64,000 bases of DNA from Candidatus Brocadia sinica JPN1 (lineage in GTDB: Bacteria > Planctomycetota > Brocadiia > Brocadiales > Brocadiaceae): assembly GCF_000949635.1 (NCBI RefSeq), contig NZ_BAFN01000001.1, positions 2,531,673 through 2,595,672 on the forward strand, in the 5' to 3' direction. Each line of letters starts with the position of its first letter. Positions within the stretch are counted from its first letter, which is position 1. A program made the position numbers and the translations under genes. Shown piece by piece: positions 2,211 through 48,966 of the stretch. Below the pieces are notes generated by a model. The model ran no database searches. It worked only from the letters and a program-made list of their open reading frames with translations, and was not told where the DNA came from.

Positions 2211-5200
2211 TCAATGGTATTCTGAAACCTTCACCATCTCTCCTGGCTGTTGTCCTGTCATCTCCTTCCCTGAGGATAGCTGAAATATTTTTCGAATTTT
2301 TTCCTGAAAGGTGTCCATGTAGGTGTAAAAAACAGGGGTGAGGTAAAGGGTGACAATCTGTGAAAAAAGCAGACCGCCTACCATGACAAGACCCAGGGGA
2401 CGGCGCGCCTCTGCCCCTGCGCCAAAGCCAAGGGCTATCGGTAAAGCGCCCATGAGAGCTGCCATGGTGGTCATCATGATGGGGCGGAACCGGATCAGAC
2501 ACCCCTCATATATTGCTTCTAAAGGGTTCTTGCCCTCGTCTCTTTGTGCTTCCAGGGCAAAATCGATCTGCATAATGGCGTTTTTTTTGACGATCCCTAT
2601 TAACATGATAAGACCCACAAAGGCGTAGACATCCAAATCCATACGGAAGATGAAAAGGGTTAAAAGTGCACCTAAACCAGCAGAAGGAAGTCCCGACAGG
2701 ATGGTTATTGGGTGGATGAAGCTTTCATAAAGTATTCCCAGTACAATATAAATGACCAGAATGGCCATACCTAATAACATTCCCAGACCCTCTATCGACG
2801 ATTGAAACTCCTGGGCTGTTCCCTGAAAACTGGTATTGATGGCAAGGGGCAAGGTCCTGAGTGCAAGTTCGTTAACCGAGGTAACGGCCTCGCTTAGGGA
2901 AACCCCGGGTCTGAGGTTAAATGAAATCGTGACGGCAGGGAACTGTCCCATATGGTTAATTGTCTGTGGGCCTAGATTCTCAGTCAGTGTTGCTACCGCA
3001 TATAAAGGAACTGGGAGCCCATTCGATGAGTTTACATAAAGCATACGCAGGGCATCCTGATTTATTTGATACTGCGGGTCTAATTCCATAATGACCTTAT
3101 ATTGGTCATTGGATGCATAGATTGTTGAGACCCATCGGTTGCCATAGGCGCTGTAGAGCGCACTTTCAATTTGTCTCGCTGTTACTCCAAGTGTTGAAGC
3201 CTTATCCCGGTGAATTACGACGTTTATCTGCGGATTCCTGACCTGCAGATCACTAGTTACATCCTGCAATATCGGCAGATTCTGCATTTCAGCTTCGAGG
3301 ATTGGGGCATAGTGATACAATTCTTCAATATCCGGACTTTGTAAGGTAAATTGATACAGGCTTTTTGTCAGTCGCCCCCCGATACGAATTTCAGGAGGGT
3401 CTTGCATGAAAATTCTGATACCCGGAATCGTGGCGAGCTTTTGACGCAATTCCTCAATTACCTGTACAGAACTCAGACGGCGTCCGGGTCGTGGTTTTAA
3501 ATGGATAAACAAGACGCCCTGGTTGGGACTGGCTGCAGCGCCGGAACTACCAACACTCGAATAAAAGCACTTAACATTTGGATCTTCGTGGACTATATCT
3601 GCCACGGCCTGCTGGAGTTGTACCATCTTATCGAAAGAGGTTCCCTCTTGCGCTTCTGTAATGGTGAAAATCGTTCCCTGATCCTCGTTTGGAAGGAATC
3701 CTTTGGGAATTGTTGCAAAAAGATATCCCGTAGCCAAAAGGATGACGCCGGAAGCTGCCATTGTGGTCAGACGATACTGTAAAGCCAGCCTGAGACTCCG
3801 GTCATAAACTTTAAGCATAGTATTAAAGAAATTTTCAATAATCATGTAAAGACGTCCGTGTTTCTTCTCAGATGGTGGACGTAAGAAACGACTGCAAAGC
3901 ATAGGCGTGAGACTGAGAGAGACAAAACCCGATATCAGGATTGCCACACAGATTGTAACGGCAAATTCCCGGAATAATCGTCCGACAACACCTCCCATAA
4001 ACAGCACGGGAATAAAGACGGCTGCGAGTGAAAGTGTCATGGATAAAATAGTAAAACTGATTTCCCCGGACCCTTTGAGCGCCGCCTGAAGTGGCTTTTC
4101 TCCCATCTCCATATGACGGACGATGTTTTCAAGGATGACAATGGCATCGTCCACCACGAATCCTATTGCAAGAATCAAGGCCATGAGAGAGAGGTTGTCC
4201 ATGCTGTAATTCATCAGATACATCACTGCAAAGGTACCCACGATGGATAGTGGAAGCGCCAGACTGGGAATCATCGTGGCGGAAAAATTGCGCAGGAAAA
4301 GTAGTATGGTCATAACAACCAGGACCAAAGTCAGGATCATGGTAAATTTGACTTCATGGATCGATTTCTGGATTGATTCAGAGCGGTCATAGAGAATATG
4401 CATTTCGGCCGAAGGTGGAAGATGCGATTGGAAGACGGGCAGGAGTTTTTTGACGGCGCCCGCCACTTCGACTGCATTTGTTCCCGGCTGGCGCTGAACT
4501 GCCAGTACGACAGCCCGCTGGCTTCCGTTTTGGTCCATGTACCAGGCAGCGGCTTTATCATTTTCAACGCTGTCAACGATCCTTCCCAGTTCTTCAAGAT
4601 GTACTGGTGAACCGTCACGATAAGTTACAATAACGGAACGGTAGTCGCTGGCTTTAAATAATTGTCCGGTAGCAAGGATGGTAAATGCCTCGTGGGTTCC
4701 CTGCAGGGTTCCTGTGGGCAGATTTACATTTGCATTGTGCAGCGCCTCTTCTACTGTATCGATTCCAATACCCCTACTGGCAAGGGCATGGGGGTCAAGC
4801 TGAACGCGAACGGCGTACTTCTGCGGTCCGTAAATCTGTACCTGAGAAACCCCGCTGGTCATGGAGATACGCTGCGCCATCATGGTGTCCGCATAATCGT
4901 GCAGTTCCCAGAGAGGTAGTGTCCGGGAAGTCAGGGCAATATACAAGATAGGCTGGTCAGCAGGGTTTACCTTCTTGTAGGTTGGAGGTTGGGGCATATC
5001 CTGAGGAAGAAACGGCGTGGCTTGGGTAATGGCAGTCTGTACGTCCTGAGCTGCCGCATCAATATTCCGGTTCAGGCTAAACTGAAGTGTGATCTGAGTG
5101 GAGCCCAAAGAACTGGTGGAAGTCATGGAGTCTAATCCTTCAATAGTTGAAAACTGCCGTTCCAGGGGAGTCGCGACAGATGAAGACATGGTTTCAGGAC

Positions 5201-35700: not shown

Positions 35701-37353
35701 TTAGCCCGACTTTCGCAATTCGCACTCAAAAACGGTTATTTTTGGGCATGTATAGCTGGGAAACCCTTGATATTAAAGGGGTGAATTTTCAAAACGGCTT
35801 GTAGTGCCGACCTAGCCTATTGACGCATGCAAGGGAAACTGCGAAAATGCTTGCATGTTTCTCCGAGAAAAATCACGGACGAAGGATGGAAAAACACACC
35901 GGTATTGGAGCGTTGTAGAGAACCGCCGGGTCAGCGGAAGAAGAGTGGTGCAGCGGCAAGTGCTCTACCTGGGAGAACTCAATGATAACCAACGGGCGGG
36001 ATGGATTCGAACGATAGAGGCGATTTCGGGTGCAAAACCCAAAGCAAAACAACTGGCGTTATTTCCGGATGACTAGGAAGAATTGCCCATACTGGGCTGT
36101 GAAACCATCCGGGTGAGGTTGGACAAAATAGAATTGCGCCGTCCGTGTGAATGGGGTGCGAGCTGGTTGGGATTGTATGTGTGGAATCTTCTGGAACTGG
36201 ACACCTTTTGGAGAGGGCGTTTGCCGTCAAGCCGCAAGGGGACAAGCTGGCTGAATATGCTGAAGGCGCTCGTCTGTTACCGGCTGATAGATCCGGGAAG
36301 CGAATTTCGTTTTCACCGTGAGTGGTATGTGCGGAGCGCAATGGGAGAGCTGTTGGGGGAAGATGATTCGCTGGCACAGAAGGACAAGCCGTATCGTTGT
36401 TTGGATTTGCTGCTTGAGCATCGCGACGAGCTGTTTGGTTTTTTAAAAGGGCAATGGGGCAAGCTGCTTGGCGCGAAGTATGATGTGCTGCTGTATGATT
36501 TGACGAGTGCGTATTTTGAAAGTGATCCGCCACCGACGGGATCTGGGGGTAAAAAACGGTTTGGGTACAGCCGGGACAAACGTTCAGATTGCGTTCAGGT
36601 ATTAACGCCGGAAGGATTTCCCGTGGCCTACGAAGTATATCCCGGGAATACAAGAGACACTGCGACACTGGAGGAATTTCTGGATAGGATCGAAAAGCAG
36701 TATGGGAAATTCCGGCGCACCTGGCTCATGGATCGTGGTATTCCAACGGAGGATATGTTGGAAAAGATGCGTTCCCGAGGGATTGATTATTTGGTTGGCA
36801 CCCCGAAGGGACATTTGACCCGTGTTGAAAAACCGTTGCTCGAACAGACCTGGATGCAGGCGCGAGAAAGCGTCAGCGTGAAAAGTCTTCAGCAAGAATC
36901 GAAGTTCTACGTCTCTGTGAAAAGCCATGACCGTGTAGCCAAGGATCGCTTTCCATCCGTCCCATATGGCACCAATTGGAAAAGAGAATTGAAGCCCATA
37001 TTTTTGTCTCCTTTTTGGCTTTTTGTCTCCACACGGCGTTGCGAAATCTTGCGCGGGAACGAGCCGCAGGGCTGACATCCGAAGCCATTTTGGAAAAAAT
37101 GTCGAACATTCAAATGATTGATGTTCATTTACCAACCACGGATGGCCGTCACATTGTCATGAGCCGATATACACAGCCAGAAAAGGATGTTTCTCTCCTT
37201 TTGGCACAATTGGGATTGACGCTTCCTGAACAACCTCCGCCCAAGGTTTATGCCTCAGGACAGGTCGGTCTGTAGTGCCGACCTTTTTCCACGATCCCTT
37301 GAATTTACTGGCTTAGCGGCTTATACACCCCTCGAATTGCGAAGGTCTGGTTA
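35701..37353 (+). mobile_element. Decayed IS1634-type insertion sequence
   Basis: Imperfect terminal inverted repeats of about 20 bases bound the element. On the left is TTAGCCCGACTTTCGCAATT at 35701; on the right, the reverse complement of the sequence ending at 37353 reads TAACCAGACCTTCGCAATTC. The inner transposase is broken (see the pseudogene). About 155 bases of 5' non-coding sequence precede the transposase. A 5' fragment of a second copy lies at 47596. No target duplication is evident. Confidence 0.8.
35855..37275 (+). pseudogene. IS1634-family transposase, broken by a stop and an internal deletion
   Basis: The frame starting at 35855 (MFLREKSRTKDGKTHRYWSV) is cut by an in-frame TAG at 36074-36076. 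It continues in the same frame from 36083 with typical transposase motifs: YDLTSAYFE, RFGYSRDKRSDCVQV-like KKRFGYSRDKRSD, and TWLMDRGIPT. Near 36948 about 100 residues of the family sequence are missing, and the downstream part (LEKRIEAHIFVSFLAFCLHT and MIDVHLPTTDGRHIV) lies in another frame ending at 37275. The DDE-type enzyme is therefore inactive. Confidence 0.88.
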
Positions 37354-37503
37354 GGAAATTTTCTGATATAAATTTATATTTTTTCATTGACACATATGTA
37401 TGAATTTTAGAGAATTCCCGTTAATTCCTGAGCTAAACCACCCGCTAGCCACCAGCTACGCTGGTGGTACTGAGTTAATGCAAGGAATTTCAAATTGCAG
37501 TTG

Positions 37504-37554
37504 TAGCACGAACTTCAGTTCGCTTACATCCCATGCGAACTAAAGTTCGCGCTA
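37504..37554. repeat. Long hairpin directly before intron copy 1
   Basis: Arms 37504-37523 and 37535-37554 are 20 bases each and pair with two mismatches (TAGCACGAACTTCAGTTCGC against its partner), with an 11-base loop. The group II intron starts at the very next base. Palindromes with GCGAACT-AAGTTCGC arms are REP-like. A smaller palindrome (CCACCAGC-TAC-GCTGGTGG) lies about 50 bases upstream. Confidence 0.8.
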
Positions 37555-38283
37555 GTGCGCCTGAGAGTGCGCAATGTCAGAGGGGTGAAAGTCCCCTTCA
37601 GGGAAAACGCTTTCCAAACCTGTAACCGACCGTAACTGCGACACCGTGAGGTGTGGTGGAGAGCAACGGGAGGTGAAAAGCTGGTTCGTAGGATAACAAA
37701 CTCGATTCGGCCTGTTGTAACGGTGAGCCTGCTAGGGAATGGCGAAGCCCAGACCTTTGAGAGGAGAAAAAAGAAGAAAGGAAGCCTCATAAGCTGAGGG
37801 GTAGCGTGATAAAGCGATGGTAGGGAACAATGGGTGGTTGGAGACGGAATGGCTGGAAGGCAAGGTGCATGAATCAGGAATACCTGATAGAGGGAGTGAC
37901 TGTATCAGGAGATAGAGCCTCCATAGGAGCGAAGAGACACCGTAATGGGTGTGGAGCAAAGGGAGGCAGGAAGGTGGAGGTATGAAGTGGACAAGTCAGG
38001 AAGCCAAACCAATGTGAGTGGCCGAGATGCCTAAGCAAATTGGAGAAATCCAGAGAGAACAGGATTGAACTTGGCTTGTAGCGGAATACTTGCTGACGGT
38101 CGATATAAGATGAATGATGAGAAGCGCTGCCATCATTATTAATCTTGGGTTGTTCACGGTAATCACAGCCCATGTATTAATCTGTCAATCCCGAAGGGGT
38201 AACCACTGACTGGAGAGCCGTATGCGGGAGATCCGCCTGTACGGTTCGGAGGGAGGGGAGGCGAAAGCCTTCCCTACCCCTAT
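37555..38283 (+). mobile_element. Group II intron without an intron-encoded protein, copy 1
   Basis: The 729-base unit starts GTGCGCC, matching the GUGYG 5' consensus. It ends with a domain V hairpin (GAGCCGTATGCGGG to TGTACGGTTC near 38215-38247) carrying the AGC triad, then a domain VI hairpin with a bulged A seven bases from the 3' end at ...CCCTAT. Domain I-type sequences such as GGTGAAAGTCC and CGTAACTGCGACACCGTGAGG are present. Domain IV holds no reverse transcriptase; a start like ATGAAGTGGACA is stopped within 12 codons. The copy at 47886 is nearly identical. It would need a maturase in trans to move. Confidence 0.87.
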
Positions 38284-38334: not shown

Positions 38335-38455
38335 ATACGATAAGGGCAAACCCTGAGTGATCAGGGGACGCAAAGGAAAGGGTCTTGATAAGCCGTTGAA
38401 ACGGTTTAAACAGTTTCAGCGGCTTATGGGAAAGATAGCCTTACTGCCGAAGATG
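38335..38455 (+). promoter_or_regulatory. Cyclic di-GMP-I (GEMM) riboswitch aptamer
   Basis: The sequence has the GEMM-I landmarks in order: AAGGGCAAACC at 38342, GGGGACGCAAAG at 38363, GGGTCTTGA, an extra stem (AAGCCG...CGGCTT), and GATAGCCTTACTGCCGAAG at 38434. These match the conserved P2 tetraloop receptor, the G that stacks on c-di-GMP and the closing strand. The aptamer's 3' strand is also the 5' arm of a terminator, so ligand binding should favour read-through into the large secreted-protein gene. Copy 2 is at 48843 on the other strand. Confidence 0.85.
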
Positions 38456-38492
38456 TTTTTAGGAAAATCTTTGCAGTAAGGCTTTTTTGTTT
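38438..38492 (+). terminator. Riboswitch-controlled intrinsic terminator
   Basis: GCCTTACTGC (38438-38447) pairs with GCAGTAAGGC (38473-38482) and is followed by TTTTTTGTTTT; an inner AAGAT/ATCTT pairing extends the hairpin. The first arm is part of the c-di-GMP aptamer, so the two folds exclude each other. This predicts a genetic ON switch for the gene at 38589. Confidence 0.85.
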
Positions 38493-38588
38493 TGTAGGAA
38501 GATTGTTTTAACCACAGAGACACAAAGAAAAGCCTTCTGGATTACGGACATTTTCGCCGGATTCATCTTGAAAAGGAGGGGTAATTTT

Positions 38589-41500
38589 ATGAGGAATAGA
38601 TCCACTTTATTATTGGCCGGTCTTGTTGCAGCAATGCTTGCCACGTGGTTTATAGACAGTTCAAACCTCGCAAGTGAGGATAGAACAGAACAGAACAGAA
38701 CAGAACAGAACAGAACAGAACAGAACACAAACACCTTATATTGTCCTCACATAAAATATGGTCTGGATTGGCAGACATCCGTTCAGATCACGAATATTGA
38801 ATGCAGTTGTAAACAGAAAAGGGTTCGGGTAAAACTCTCCACCCATGATAATAACGGTACATTTACCGGTACTATAAAGAATGTTAGGAAACTCAAGGCA
38901 AATGAAACAAAGGTTATTGATCCCCAATCATTGCCTCCCAGTGCGGCATCTTTAAAGATTGCACCCAACGGAAACCTCATATCCCACGTCATTTACAGGA
39001 CAAACGACGGTAAAAAATCAGAAGTAGTCCCTGCCGTAAAAGCGCCATCCATGCAACTGGACTTTCCCGTATTGGCCGATTATGAAGACGTTTTTATCTA
39101 CGAAACGATCACCCTTTTAAATCCAAATCCAACCCCTGCAAGTATCGAGATGATAGCCTTAGATAAAAACGGATATGAAATAGAGCGCATGGCAGTATCA
39201 CCCCTTTCTTCGTGGGAGAGCAATACCATCGCTCTCGTAGATATCTTTGGACCAAAAACATTAAAAGACCTTTCAACGGTAAGGGTTGTTTCAGACACCA
39301 ATATTGCCGGAATTCAGCTTGTGGATTATCCGGGGAATGACCTCGTTGGTCTGCCGGCGCTGACCGTTGCCAGTAAAGGCTGGACATTTCCCATTGCAAC
39401 GGAAGGCGGCAACCAGGCGCTCTGGACAAGGGTTGGGGTGATAAATCCCGGAGGCGAAACTGCTGATATCAGTGTTGAGGCCTTCGATGCAAGTAACAAT
39501 TCCCTTGGAGCCATCGACAGAAAAAGTCTTTTACCCGGTGCGATATATTTTACCGGCACAGAAAACACAAGTACGGATGGTGGTGTCATACCATTAAATG
39601 CCGCTTATATAAAGGTCACCGCTGATAGACCTATAAGTGGATTCGAGGTTGTTGGCGTTATAGATGGTAGCGGTCTTGCGGCAGTTATGGGAATTCCTGA
39701 GGAAGACCTGACCGCAGTGGGATTTGAGATAACAGGCACCAATGACAGTGGTGTACTGAATGCATATTTGATGGTGAGAATGGAAGATGGGAGTGTGAAG
39801 TCAACTGCGATGAGTTTGGAAAATGAAGAGTGGAACAAAGTTTTAAAACTAATCATGGAATCCGAAATAGCAGGAGATTTTACACTAAAAAAGGATTTAG
39901 CAAGAGAAAGAGATGCCTTTATACCCTCCTATTACCCCTCTGACGTTAAACCTTGTGAAGCTAAATTAATTAAAAAGCTAGAGAAAAAAGGAGCTAAAGT
40001 AATATATTTAAATCCTAGCAATGAAAAAAAACCAGTTTGTACACAAGGAACAGGATGTGGTGAGTGGGAATGTTATGATGAAAGAAAAGTTGCTGATAAA
40101 GTGGCAGATATGCTTTACGCTGAAGGATACTCAGTAATTGTGGATTACGACCAATATAATGCAGGAAAGAGGGCGAATGAGGAAAGTACACTACCAAATG
40201 TATTTGTATCAATCCACTCCAATGCAACGACTGAAGAACTTACAAATATTTGCAAAGGAAAACAAACCGGTCCAGAAACTTGGTGGGAAAATAGTAATAC
40301 AGGTGATGAGACTTTGTCACTAAATATTCAAAACGCACTTGTGGCAGAACTGAGAAAAAACGAGTACAAGGGCAATTTAAACCGTGGAATAAAGGACTGG
40401 AATAAAAAGGAATGCCGTAACTGTGATAATGATAACTGTAGTAATCCGAAAAATTGTAAACATCCGATGTGGCCTAATTGGTATGAGGCCAAAATGCCCG
40501 CGTGCTTAGTTGAGACACTCTTTCACGATAATCCAGAGGATGCATATATTTTATGTTCTAAGGCAGAAATAGTTGCACAAGGAATTGCTGATGGAATAAT
40601 AACATTTCTTACTGCCACACCTCCGCCTTCTCCCTTCTTGTCGTTCCCATTACGAGGCAAAAATGCTTATAACGCGGAGATAATATCGGTTTTTGATCAT
40701 TCAATGAAAAAGAAAATGAGGTATTGTCCCGACAACGTTAAAGATTCTTTACACAGTTCGGTAATTGCATATACAGGTGAAAAAGGAACAGAACCAAATG
40801 AAAAAGAAAGTGGTAAGTCTGGTACGAATTGTCCTGGCCATAAAATTTATAGTTTTTTTAAGAGTCAGGATGATAAAACACCATTTTATATAAATGGCCA
40901 TTACGTTGGTACAAAAAATAGTGGACCTAATACATTGAATTATGATGGCCATCCGGGATATGATTATAATATTGAGCATGTTGATGGAAAAGATGTTCTT
41001 GCGGCAGGAACAGGAACGGTAATTGTGGCAGATTGGGAAAATACAGAAAACCATGACAAAGGACTAGGCCTTCGCATAATTATAGATCACAATAACGGTT
41101 ATCGTACTATATATGGACATTTATCATCTGTAAAAGTACAAAAGAATGACAAGATAACTACAGTAGGGCAAGTTATTGGAGAATGGGGTAGCACGGGTAA
41201 TTCAGGTGGGCGCCATCTTCATTTTGAAGTGCGAACTGAAGATGATATATCAGTCGATCCCTATGGTTGGGATCAGGATAAATTAGGAGACGACCCATAC
41301 ACACTATATAATCCAGGAGTAGTTAATTATACACTTTGGGTGACAACAGCCATCCTTCCAAAAATTACCTCAATTAGTCCGACGAGCGGAGTTTCTGGCA
41401 CTTCAGTAACAATAAATGGTACGAACTTTGGTACAACGCAAGGGACGGTAAAATTTGGCACAGCGGAAGCCACCGTTACTTCATGGAGTGATACCAAAAT

Positions 41501-43706
41501 TGTTGCAACTGCACCTGCTGGTACTGGAACGGTAAACGTGACGGTAACAACAAATGCAGGAACAAGCAATGGGGTACCATTTGCATATACCACTGTCACT
41601 ATCATCTTTCCCAATGGAGGCGAACACTTACTAGCTGGCAGCGAACAAACAATTGAATGGAAGGTAGATGGTGATACTTCACAAATTAAAGACTTCCTGG
41701 TCGCTTCCTCCATCGATGGAGGAACCAACTATACAGCAATAGGTACGGTAACTGCTACTGACCGCTTTTTGTCTAAAAAGATACCTTCCTATGTATTATC
41801 TACGCAGTGTAAGGTAGCGGTGGTTGCCCATGATGCTTCAGGACGCACTTTGGCAGGGGATGCCAGTGATAATAACTTTACCATATCAAAATGTCAGATG
41901 CCTGGTACATTCACCCTTACAGCCTCTCCTGGGTGTAACGGCAGTAGTTCTCAGATATTGTTAAGCTGGACTGGTTCGAGTGACGCAACATCATACGATC
42001 TCTATCGTAACGGAAGCTCGTATAAAACCGGATTAAATGGTACACAATACACAGATAAGTCAGTAACATCAGGAACGATATATACCTACTACGTGACAGC
42101 AAAAAACTCCTGCGGTTCCACCAAATCCAATACCGCCTCTGCAACAGCAAACGATTGTAACACAACATTCACCGTTACTTATCCCAATGGAGGTGAGACA
42201 TGGCAGACAGGGAGTACCCAGAAAGTTACGTGGACTTACAAGGGTGACCCAGGACCAAATGTGAAGATTGAACTTCTAAAGGGCGGTGCTTGGAACTACA
42301 CCATTGCTTCAAGTACATCGATAGGAAGCAATGGAAGCGGATCATATATCTGGACGGTTCCTAAAGATCAAGCTTCGGGAAGCGATTACAAGATCAGAAT
42401 CACCAGTACGAACGTTTACACTGATACGAGTGATGGCAATTTTACGATAGGAGGCACTATTCCAAGCATTGCCTCAATTAATCCTATGAGTGGAACTGCT
42501 GGCACTTCAGTAACGATAAATGGTAAGAACTTTGGTACAACGCAGCAGGGTACAAGCACAATAAAATTCGGCATTGCAACAGCAACTGTTACTTCATGGA
42601 GTGACACCAAAATTGTTGCAATTGCGCCTACTAATAGCGGAACGGTTAACGTGACGGTTACCACAACCTCAGGAACAAGCAATGGTATACCGTTTACTTA
42701 TAATGAAAATCCACCGCACATTGACAGTGTGAGTCCGAATCCGGTGATAGGTTCAAACAGCCCCCAGATCGTCACGCTTTACGGCCAGTACTTTGCATCG
42801 GGATTGACGGTGACGGTTGGCTGGACTGGGGGTTCAAAGGTGTTGAGCAGTTCACAGGTATTTGTGGACAGTTCAACCCAGGTGCGTATCTCAATTACCA
42901 CAACCACCGATCCGGACACGTGGACGGTAAAGGTAACGAATCCTGACGGACAGAGTTCCAATACGGCGTACTTCCAGGTGATCGCGCCACCACCAAATCC
43001 ACCGCACATTGACAGTGTGAGTCCCAATCCGGTGATAGGTTCAAACAGCCCCCAGATCGTCACGCTTTACGGCCAATACTTTGCATCGGGATTGACGGTG
43101 ACGGTTGGCTGGACTGGGGGTTCAAAGGTGTTGAGCAGTTCACAGGTATTTGTGGACAGTTCAACCCAGGTGCGTATCTCAATTACCACAACCACCGATC
43201 CGGACACGTGGACGGTAAAGGTAACGAATCCTGACGGACAGAGTTCCAATACGGCGTACTTCCAGGTGATCGCGCCTACCACCGAGGTAATTGTTGACGA
43301 TCAAAGCTCTGGTTTCAGCAAGTACGGAGGCTCTTCTTACTGGTATGAGGCATGGATTGGTTACAATGGTCACATGTTTTGGACTACTAACAATCAAAAT
43401 ACAATTTATAATTCTGCAAAATGGCAGCCAAATCTCTCAAACGGAGGGGCTGGATATTATGCAGTGTATGTCTATATTCCAAGTGATTTTTCTAATACAA
43501 CGAATGCAACCTATACCATTTTTCACAACGGTATTACCGATACTCGTTCGGTTAACCAAAATAATTATTCTGACCAGTGGGTTTTGTTGGGAAATTTCTA
43601 TTTCTCCGCTAATGGAAGTGAATATGTTGAATTGGTTGACAAAACTGGTGAAACATTTAATACAAAAAAGATTGGCTTTGATGCAGTAAAATGGGTTAAG
43701 CAGTGA
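38589..43706 (+). CDS. Giant secreted multi-domain protein with two peptidoglycan-hydrolase domains
   Basis: The 1705-residue protein starts at an ATG with a strong AAGGAGGGG site. After a signal peptide come three RTEQN units encoded by nine copies of a 5-base repeat. Then follow a beta-rich region (50-400) and an Amidase_3-like domain near 468-677 (VFVSIHSNA; VETLFHDNPEDA), whose first zinc histidine appears missing. An M23 peptidase with intact HPGYDY and HLHFEV lies at 788-880. Next come an IPT/TIG domain, a FPNGGE module, an Fn3-like domain, a YPNGGE module and a second TIG. Two near-identical 92-residue repeats (1375-1563) and a golvesin C-terminal-like domain close it. It likely acts outside the cell in wall remodelling or adhesion, under riboswitch control. 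Confidence 0.85.
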   Translation: MRNRSTLLLAGLVAAMLATWFIDSSNLASEDRTEQNRTEQNRTEQNTNTLYCPHIKYGLDWQTSVQITNIECSCKQKRVRVKLSTHDNNGTFTGTIKNVRKLKANETKVIDPQSLPPSAASLKIAPNGNLISHVIYRTNDGKKSEVVPAVKAPSMQLDFPVLADYEDVFIYETITLLNPNPTPASIEMIALDKNGYEIERMAVSPLSSWESNTIALVDIFGPKTLKDLSTVRVVSDTNIAGIQLVDYPGNDLVGLPALTVASKGWTFPIATEGGNQALWTRVGVINPGGETADISVEAFDASNNSLGAIDRKSLLPGAIYFTGTENTSTDGGVIPLNAAYIKVTADRPISGFEVVGVIDGSGLAAVMGIPEEDLTAVGFEITGTNDSGVLNAYLMVRMEDGSVKSTAMSLENEEWNKVLKLIMESEIAGDFTLKKDLARERDAFIPSYYPSDVKPCEAKLIKKLEKKGAKVIYLNPSNEKKPVCTQGTGCGEWECYDERKVADKVADMLYAEGYSVIVDYDQYNAGKRANEESTLPNVFVSIHSNATTEELTNICKGKQTGPETWWENSNTGDETLSLNIQNALVAELRKNEYKGNLNRGIKDWNKKECRNCDNDNCSNPKNCKHPMWPNWYEAKMPACLVETLFHDNPEDAYILCSKAEIVAQGIADGIITFLTATPPPSPFLSFPLRGKNAYNAEIISVFDHSMKKKMRYCPDNVKDSLHSSVIAYTGEKGTEPNEKESGKSGTNCPGHKIYSFFKSQDDKTPFYINGHYVGTKNSGPNTLNYDGHPGYDYNIEHVDGKDVLAAGTGTVIVADWENTENHDKGLGLRIIIDHNNGYRTIYGHLSSVKVQKNDKITTVGQVIGEWGSTGNSGGRHLHFEVRTEDDISVDPYGWDQDKLGDDPYTLYNPGVVNYTLWVTTAILPKITSISPTSGVSGTSVTINGTNFGTTQGTVKFGTAEATVTSWSDTKIVATAPAGTGTVNVTVTTNAGTSNGVPFAYTTVTIIFPNGGEHLLAGSEQTIEWKVDGDTSQIKDFLVASSIDGGTNYTAIGTVTATDRFLSKKIPSYVLSTQCKVAVVAHDASGRTLAGDASDNNFTISKCQMPGTFTLTASPGCNGSSSQILLSWTGSSDATSYDLYRNGSSYKTGLNGTQYTDKSVTSGTIYTYYVTAKNSCGSTKSNTASATANDCNTTFTVTYPNGGETWQTGSTQKVTWTYKGDPGPNVKIELLKGGAWNYTIASSTSIGSNGSGSYIWTVPKDQASGSDYKIRITSTNVYTDTSDGNFTIGGTIPSIASINPMSGTAGTSVTINGKNFGTTQQGTSTIKFGIATATVTSWSDTKIVAIAPTNSGTVNVTVTTTSGTSNGIPFTYNENPPHIDSVSPNPVIGSNSPQIVTLYGQYFASGLTVTVGWTGGSKVLSSSQVFVDSSTQVRISITTTTDPDTWTVKVTNPDGQSSNTAYFQVIAPPPNPPHIDSVSPNPVIGSNSPQIVTLYGQYFASGLTVTVGWTGGSKVLSSSQVFVDSSTQVRISITTTTDPDTWTVKVTNPDGQSSNTAYFQVIAPTTEVIVDDQSSGFSKYGGSSYWYEAWIGYNGHMFWTTNNQNTIYNSAKWQPNLSNGGAGYYAVYVYIPSDFSNTTNATYTIFHNGITDTRSVNQNNYSDQWVLLGNFYFSANGSEYVELVDKTGETFNTKKIGFDAVKWVKQ
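38682..38726 (+). repeat. Pentanucleotide tandem repeat AGAAC x9 inside the coding region
   Basis: Nine perfect copies of AGAAC lie between codons 32 and 46 of the giant secreted protein, just after the signal peptide. Because the unit is 5 bases, gain or loss of one copy shifts the frame and would stop translation early. This is the form of a slipped-strand phase-variation tract. Confidence 0.95.
42711..43276 (+). repeat. Two 278-base direct repeats within the giant secreted-protein gene
   Basis: Bases 42711-42988 and 42999-43276 differ at about two positions. Each encodes one Ig-like IPT/TIG-type module beginning PPHIDSVSPNPVIGSN. The near identity shows a recent duplication or ongoing homogenisation. 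Confidence 0.95.
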
Positions 43707-47833: not shown

Positions 47834-47885
47834 AGGGCGTGCCTTGAAGTATGGAATACCTGAGTGGTTGAAAATACCACCTCTG
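47833..47885 (+). repeat. Dispersed repeat between IS fragment and intron copy 2
   Basis: GGCGTGCCTTGAAGTATGGA and the following bases (...GGTTGAAAATACCACCTCTG) match at about 80% the sequence at 58174-58226 after murA. A short hairpin (GTGGT...ACCAC) lies at its end, and the group II intron starts right after CTCTG. Confidence 0.6.
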
Positions 47886-48619
47886 GTGCGCCTGAAAGTG
47901 CACAATGCCAGAAGGGTGAAAGTCCCTTTCAGGGAAAACGCTTTCTGCCCTGTAACCGACCGTAACTGCGACACCGTGAGGTGTGGTGGGGAGCAACGGG
48001 AGGTGAAAAGCTAGTCCGTAGGTTAACAAACTCGATTCGGCCTGTTGTAACGGCGAGCCTTCTAGAGAATGGCGAAGCCCAGACCTTTTGAGAGAAGAGA
48101 GAAAAAAAAGAAGGAAGCCTATCAAGCTGAGGGGTAGCGTGATAAAGCGATGGTAGGGAACAACGGGTGGTTGGAGGCGGAATGGCTGGAAGGCAAGGTG
48201 CATGAATCAGGGATACCTGATAGAGGGAGTGACTGTATCAGGAGACAGAGCCTCCATAGGAGCGAAGAGACACCGTAATGGGTGTGGAGCAAAGGGAGGC
48301 AGGAAGGTGGAGGTATGAAGTGGACAAGTCAGGAAGCCAAACCAATGTGAGTGGCCGAGATGCCTAAGCAAATTGGAGAAATCCAGAGAGAACAGGATTG
48401 AACTTGGCTTGTAGTGGAATACTTGCTGACGGTCGATATAAGATGAATGATGAGAAGCGCTGCCATCATTATTAATCTTGGGTTGTTCACGATAATCACA
48501 GCCCATGTATTAATCTGTCAATCCCGAAGGGGTAACCACTGACTGGAGAGCCGTATGCGGGAGATCCGCCTGTACGGTTCGGAGGGGGGGGGAAGGCGAA
48601 AGCCTTTCCTACCCCCTAT
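47886..48619 (+). mobile_element. Group II intron without an intron-encoded protein, copy 2
   Basis: The 734-base unit starts GTGCGCC and ends ...CCCCCTAT. It matches copy 1 (37555) at nearly every base, including domain V (GAGCCGTATGCGGG to TGTACGGTTC) and domain VI. It also lacks a reverse transcriptase. Its 5' exon (ACCACCTCTG) differs from that of copy 1, so this is a separate insertion event and not part of a larger duplication. Confidence 0.87.
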
Positions 48620-48801
48620 CCTAACAGTCCAGTACTCATACTTTTTCTCTGAAGTTTATGCACGGCCCATCATTAAATATCCGCACTAAAAGCCGTCTTA
48701 TTTTACGGCTTTAGTACGGATAATACTCTTACTGGCGACTACTATATGCCCATTTCGGCGTATAATGCATGATTTTCAGGTCACAATCGTTTTTAACTCA
48801 T
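48620..48801. other. Region with a long hairpin between intron copy 2 and riboswitch copy 2
   Basis: No gene is visible. Bases 48679-48722 form a long hairpin (ATCCGCACTAAAAGCCGT paired with ACGGCTTTAGTACGGAT, 8-base loop). On the minus strand this would lie downstream of the riboswitch, where a regulated gene is expected but absent. Confidence 0.5.
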
Positions 48802-48855
48802 AAAAAAAAGCCTTACTGCAAAAATGTTCTCTTAAAACATCTTCGGCAGTAAGGC
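48802..48855 (-). terminator. Terminator of riboswitch copy 2
   Basis: On the minus strand GCCTTACTGC (48855-48846) pairs with GCAGTAAGGC (48819-48810) and runs into eight T. Sequence and layout copy the terminator at 38438. Confidence 0.85.
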
Positions 48856-48966
48856 TATCTTTTTCACTAAAGGATAAGGTATCGTCTTAAACTACATCCC
48901 TGTGTGTTTAAAAGACCCGTTACTTTGCGCCCCCCGATTACTCAGAGTTTGCCTTTATCGTGATTT
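48843..48966 (-). promoter_or_regulatory. Second c-di-GMP-I riboswitch aptamer, orphan
   Basis: Read on the minus strand, the landmarks AAAGGCAAACTCT, GGGGGGCGCAAAG, ACGGGTCTTTT and GATAGCCTTACTGCCGAAG appear in GEMM-I order, close to copy 1. The terminator overlaps the last block in the same way. Downstream on this strand are only a hairpin, the antisense side of intron copy 2 and an IS fragment. Its target gene seems lost. Confidence 0.78.

Follow-up and report, generated by a model that had tools for sequence, protein, structure and literature searches.

Does a pentanucleotide repeat that lies inside the coding sequence of a large secreted-protein gene, behind a c-di-GMP riboswitch, turn that gene on and off in Candidatus Brocadia sinica JPN1? 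We addressed this question in the window, the whole 64,000-nt stretch of DNA that was analysed (NZ_BAFN01000001.1, positions 2,531,673 to 2,595,672). A preliminary description had pointed to nine error-free AGAAC units in codons 32-46 of a 1705-residue protein, right behind a signal peptide; the sequence and the open reading frame agree on the repeat, and a signal-peptide-like N terminus was read by eye at the expected place. The start of the gene carries the following features.

38573..38581, + strand: Shine-Dalgarno-like AAGGAGGGG, directly ahead of the ATG, seen in the sequence and conserved in Brocadia sp. AMX1
38589..43706, + strand: gene of a 1705-aa secreted multidomain protein, an ATG open reading frame that is in the ON frame with 9 units
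38589..38675, + strand: signal-peptide-like N terminus, about residues 1-29, MRNRSTLLLAGLVAAMLATWFIDSSNLAS, from a by-eye reading of the translation, conserved in AMX1
38682..38726, + strand: (AGAAC)9 pentanucleotide tract, codons 32-46, encoding TEQNR repeats, without a stop in any frame

The units of the tract match at 100%, and one further matching base at 38727 extends the period-5 run to 46 bp, making this the top-scoring short-unit array within the window. The longest period-5 run across 100 windows simulated with a dinucleotide Markov model was 16 bp, indicating that the tract is not attributable to chance. No other site in the whole 4.08-Mb genome (4,077,002 bases, 3 contigs) carries at least four AGAAC units, and the idea of a genome-wide AGAAC phasome was therefore rejected. 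Simple-repeat statistics come from genome stretches sampled at systematic spacing and totalling 1.2 Mb, in which seven repeats passed the thresholds. Two of these were coding, with 3-bp and 6-bp units that preserve the frame, and lay near gene ends; since the sampled coding repeats are so few and all of this kind, the AGAAC tract is exceptional. Classical simple-repeat phase variers have many loci of the phase-variable coding type. There was no sign of such a large set here, with one locus in about 31% of the genome. Nor is AGAAC a common repeat of Planctomycetes, as at least five units were present in only 4 of 392 genomes. Two of these are Brocadia genomes, and the remaining two have five units each, in one case in a low-complexity stretch and in the other just past the 3′ end of an open reading frame.

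We then computed the products expected at different unit numbers. With 6, 9 or 12 units a complete protein of 1700-1710 aa is encoded; with 7, 8, 10 or 11 units the product is only 51-73 aa, as the preliminary description had supposed in stating that a change of one or two units shifts the frame and abolishes the protein. It had also placed the present copy number in the ON frame, and nine units indeed give the intact 1705-aa reading frame. Whatever the frame, (AGAAC)n contains no stop codon, so translation always passes through the tract. The tract thus has features expected of a contingency locus, namely at least five uninterrupted units, a unit length not divisible by three, a position inside a reading frame, and loss of the 1705-aa product when the unit number changes. 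Work on the Neisseria phasome implies a threshold of five units for pentanucleotides, with opa loci of 1-4 repeats falling below the cut-off (PMC5953494), and the nine units found here exceed it.

The protein body was examined by Pfam, which matched Amidase_3, Peptidase_M23, TIG, KNH-like and Golvesin_C domains.

40080..40601, + strand: Amidase_3-like domain, residues 498-671 (Pfam)
40950..41261, + strand: Peptidase_M23 domain, residues 788-891 (Pfam), with the zinc-site motifs HxxxD and HLH present
41358..41588, + strand: IPT/TIG domain, residues 924-1000, one among several (Pfam)
42707..43283, + strand: tandem duplication of 288 bp within the gene, the copies 99% identical and in frame
43287..43691, + strand: Golvesin_C domain, residues 1567-1701 (Pfam)

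In the Amidase_3 part the SIHSNA and LVE motifs are retained but the first GHGG motif is missing, so that its activity is doubtful. The protein is best read as a predicted peptidoglycan hydrolase, either secreted or at the cell surface. The 288-bp duplication near the C terminus is a second, in-frame source of length variation.

The leader of the gene was studied for the second layer of control, the c-di-GMP riboswitch that the preliminary description had placed ahead of the gene.

37387..37415, + strand: best upstream sigma-70-like promoter match, beyond the group II intron
37552..38283, + strand: short group II intron with no long open reading frame inside and a domain 5 match at 38213-38283, between the promoter match and the aptamer
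38335..38451, + strand: c-di-GMP-I riboswitch aptamer (RF01051), ending 137 bp upstream of the ATG
38438..38489, + strand: intrinsic terminator, -22.3 kcal/mol, its 5′ arm overlapping the 3′ end of the aptamer

The riboswitch scored 57 bits against a gathering threshold of 35 and is followed by the terminator, in agreement with that claim. When the aptamer was folded alone, the bases shared with the 5′ arm of the terminator paired with the 5′ end of the aptamer. As the terminator arm uses bases of the aptamer's 3′ end, the ligand should block termination, and from this overlap the riboswitch is most likely ON with c-di-GMP. Promoter matches upstream of the gene were no more numerous than in shuffled sequence. 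The intron ends 52 bp ahead of the riboswitch; a second copy in the same orientation (47883-48620) lies 10.33 kb downstream, and the pair brackets the gene and its neighbour. We also observed a fragment of a DDE transposase gene (36083-37075) just 5′ of the intron. A search for inverted repeats of at least 14 bp at the locus returned the riboswitch arm and the terminator arms only. An invertible switch of the Clostridioides difficile type was rejected, because no inverted repeats flank the segment between riboswitch and gene.

On the anatomy of the locus and the comparisons described below, we consider it probable that the tract is a slipped-strand translational phase-variation switch acting on this secreted peptidoglycan-hydrolase or surface protein. 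We infer that polymerase slippage in living populations would add or remove 5-bp units just past the signal peptide. Every third copy number (6, 9, 12 and so on) would then put the signal peptide and the body in one frame, the ON state, and the remaining copy numbers would give the 51-73-aa stub, the OFF state. Upstream, the c-di-GMP-I riboswitch would gate transcription, most likely being ON with its ligand. Because the gate and the frame switch combine, the protein would be made only at high c-di-GMP in cells with an ON-frame tract. Switching may also be of benefit to the cell. The pathogen setting invoked in the preliminary description has to be dropped, since the organism is a non-pathogenic anammox planctomycete, to which immune evasion is inapplicable.

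If the tract switches, intact genes in the OFF frame might be found among relatives, and such a gene is present in Brocadia sp. AMX1 (G001 = WYAU01). Closely similar homologues occur in 2 of the 10 other members of the genus and in two of the remaining family members, a distribution that is patchy within the genus. The AMX1 orthologue retains the riboswitch, ribosome site, signal peptide and tract, the last reading AGAAC-AGGAAC-(AGAAC)4, which is 14 nt shorter than in the window, copy numbers from metagenome assemblies being consensus values. The frame is OFF: the signal peptide enters a 52-aa stub and a 1420-aa body follows in a different frame. This body is free of stops and has a dN/dS of 0.23 against the window gene, and derived residues are divided 22:22 between the AMX1 and window lineages (outgroups G003 and G020), with no excess in AMX1. 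The undecayed body, its dN/dS and the even division together indicate that the OFF copy is recent or reversible. An OFF copy whose body is intact and under purifying selection, as expected of a contingency locus, was thus obtained in one orthologue only. The preliminary description had expected unit numbers to vary among relatives, and the AMX1 tract does differ and does stand in the OFF frame; however, the 14-nt difference is no plain step of one or two units. It represents either three units lost and one G gained or a single 14-nt deletion, and would also suit an ordinary frameshift or a young pseudogene. By arithmetic, the frame would be regained at 7 or 4 units if the extra G stays. The tract is absent at the corresponding place in the G003 and G020 homologues, and was therefore probably gained; on this comparison it appears as a recent, lineage-specific feature, absent from more distant homologues. 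The leader of the G003 homologue (L009 1000-1260) apparently carries, as read by eye, two tandem c-di-GMP-I aptamers. An exact DNA pattern search gave AMX1 as the sole match among genome contigs and none among viral contigs, and a protein search of genome contigs for relatives gave none that was confirmed.

A second OFF-frame tract was obtained by a family-wide pattern search in a third Brocadia species (G008), in a gene unrelated to the hydrolase gene of the window.

L251 4741-4825, G008: AGAAC x17 from codon 4, directly behind the ATG (ATG ACT TAC AGA ACA...) of a SAM methyltransferase gene

The reading frame has a good ribosome site. At 17 units the frame is OFF, giving 50 aa; at 16 or 19 units a methyltransferase (Methyltransf_11) of 257-262 aa is encoded. 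No start codon precedes the SAM motif in the methyltransferase frame, so the enzyme cannot be made without a frame change. On one side, the closest long gene belongs to the heptosyltransferase family, as expected for an envelope-polysaccharide setting. This tract is the strongest independent support for the putative AGAAC frame switches in Brocadia. The intact but OFF frames of the methyltransferase and of AMX1 could also be recent losses. Taken together, the claim of slipped-strand phase variation draws support from the anatomy, the frame logic, the undecayed OFF orthologue and the OFF tract of 17 units in G008, and is weakened by an AMX1 break that is not of whole units.

Among the other explanations, the one that survives best, although we regard it as unlikely, is that the tract is a linker prone to slippage yet neutral under selection, a hydrophilic TEQNR spacer in which only three-unit steps are tolerated and frameshifted cells are merely defective mutants. 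Without the extra G, the two species do have nine and six units, a difference of three; the window copy reads in frame, the TEQNR peptide would do no harm as a linker at the N terminus of the mature protein, and the other coding repeats sampled in this genome have units in multiples of three. However, a linker that is tolerated should not have a 5-bp unit, and neither the AMX1 copy nor the unrelated methyltransferase is in frame. It is less likely still that the gene is being lost, with the AMX1 copy an ordinary recent pseudogene and the tract a mutational accident with no regulatory role. That only two of ten congeners have a closely similar homologue and that the AMX1 break includes a non-unit nucleotide would suit such a loss, but the stop-free AMX1 body with its low dN/dS and no derived-residue excess, and the conservation of riboswitch, ribosome site and signal peptide ahead of it, argue against it. 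Finally, an artefact of sequencing or assembly in the unit count or the frame break is very improbable: the published B. sinica genome (4.07 Mb, 3 contigs) was obtained by pyrosequencing plus fosmids (PMC4400429) and AMX1 is a metagenome assembly, but the longest homopolymer in the tract is AA, and an independent assembly, built with a k-mer (127, from the contig name k127_...) that spans the tract, shows the repeat at the orthologous position.

Returning to the phase-variation reading, we asked how the tract stands in relation to c-di-GMP control elsewhere in the genus. The B. sinica genome (G000) has 55 c-di-GMP-I riboswitches above the Rfam cut-off, two sister species have 45 and 35 matches, and 14 control genomes have 0; the literature searched held no paper naming both c-di-GMP riboswitches and Brocadia. 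The longest two repeats of the 1.2-Mb sample, (ACACTAAC)12.9 and (TAACCCAC)5.5, each start just past a TTGACA-17-TATTT promoter and stop about 30 bp upstream of a c-di-GMP-I aptamer. The chance of two of the seven repeats lying within 450 bp of a riboswitch was 0.004, in a test devised after the first matches had been seen. Another Brocadia species (G006) has three more 8-bp arrays in the same placement, with the riboswitch confirmed at two of them and the third array running off its contig.

48841-48962, - strand: second c-di-GMP-I riboswitch of the window
L064 1383-1485: 8-bp array in the promoter-to-riboswitch interval
L082 1435-1478: 8-bp array in the promoter-to-riboswitch interval
L252 1299-1460: 8-bp array in the promoter-to-riboswitch interval
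L254 about 4478-4580, - strand: 8-bp array in the promoter-to-riboswitch interval
L253 2262-2316: 8-bp array behind a promoter; the contig ends inside the array, hence no riboswitch is visible

By their sequence and placement, the ACACTAAC and TAACCCAC arrays are an apparent module common to two Brocadia species. They shift no reading frame. In the paralogues of the gene with the ACACTAAC array, the upstream regions are unrelated and carry no array. The leaders of three near-identical secreted-protein genes under riboswitch control (L064, L065 and L066) are nearly identical from the aptamer onward and diverge upstream of it, where L064 stands apart from L065 and L066, as though riboswitch and gene moved together as a cassette. 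In the B. sinica genome, a CAG x8 repeat lies within the variable arm of a c-di-GMP-I riboswitch (L117 432-455). We tentatively raise the possibility that Brocadia has built stochastic repeat switches onto an unusually large c-di-GMP regulon, in which coding AGAAC tracts would flip the frame and 8-bp arrays (5.5 to about 21 units) would tune or switch leader transcription, a two-layer bet-hedging of surface and granule genes in a non-pathogen.

In wastewater plants anammox bacteria grow as compact granules and biofilms, and the protein concerned here is a surface protein of the cell-wall-hydrolase type, controlled by c-di-GMP. Should the switching prove real, this would be the first simple-repeat phase variation described in anammox bacteria within the literature searched. 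It would also offer a source of differences between cells that PCR could test directly, in an organism that cannot so far be grown in pure culture, and would extend contingency loci well beyond host-adapted pathogens.

The closest known arrangement is that of Neisseria opa (CTTCT; PMC5953494), in which pentanucleotide units likewise lie in the 5′ part of the coding sequence of a surface-protein gene and their number sets the frame. However, the Opa proteins are an outer-membrane family with several copies in a host-adapted bacterium, whereas B. sinica, an environmental anammox bacterium, has a single copy of a gene for a large, secreted hydrolase of the cell wall. The Pfam matches (M23, Amidase_3, TIG, Golvesin_C and KNH-like) include no Opa barrel and thus no protein relationship to Opa. 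The opa tract lies within the codons of the leader peptide, and the AGAAC tract just behind the leader. The flgB and cmrRST loci of C. difficile combine, as proposed here, a c-di-GMP riboswitch and a stochastic, phase-variable DNA switch on one transcription unit (PMC5386303, PMC8844915). Their switch is an invertible element that is moved by a recombinase and acts on transcription, while the putative switch in Brocadia is a coding tandem repeat and would act on the frame. The 8-bp arrays resemble the phase-variable repeats in the 5′ leader of Moraxella uspA2, but they precede a riboswitch aptamer.
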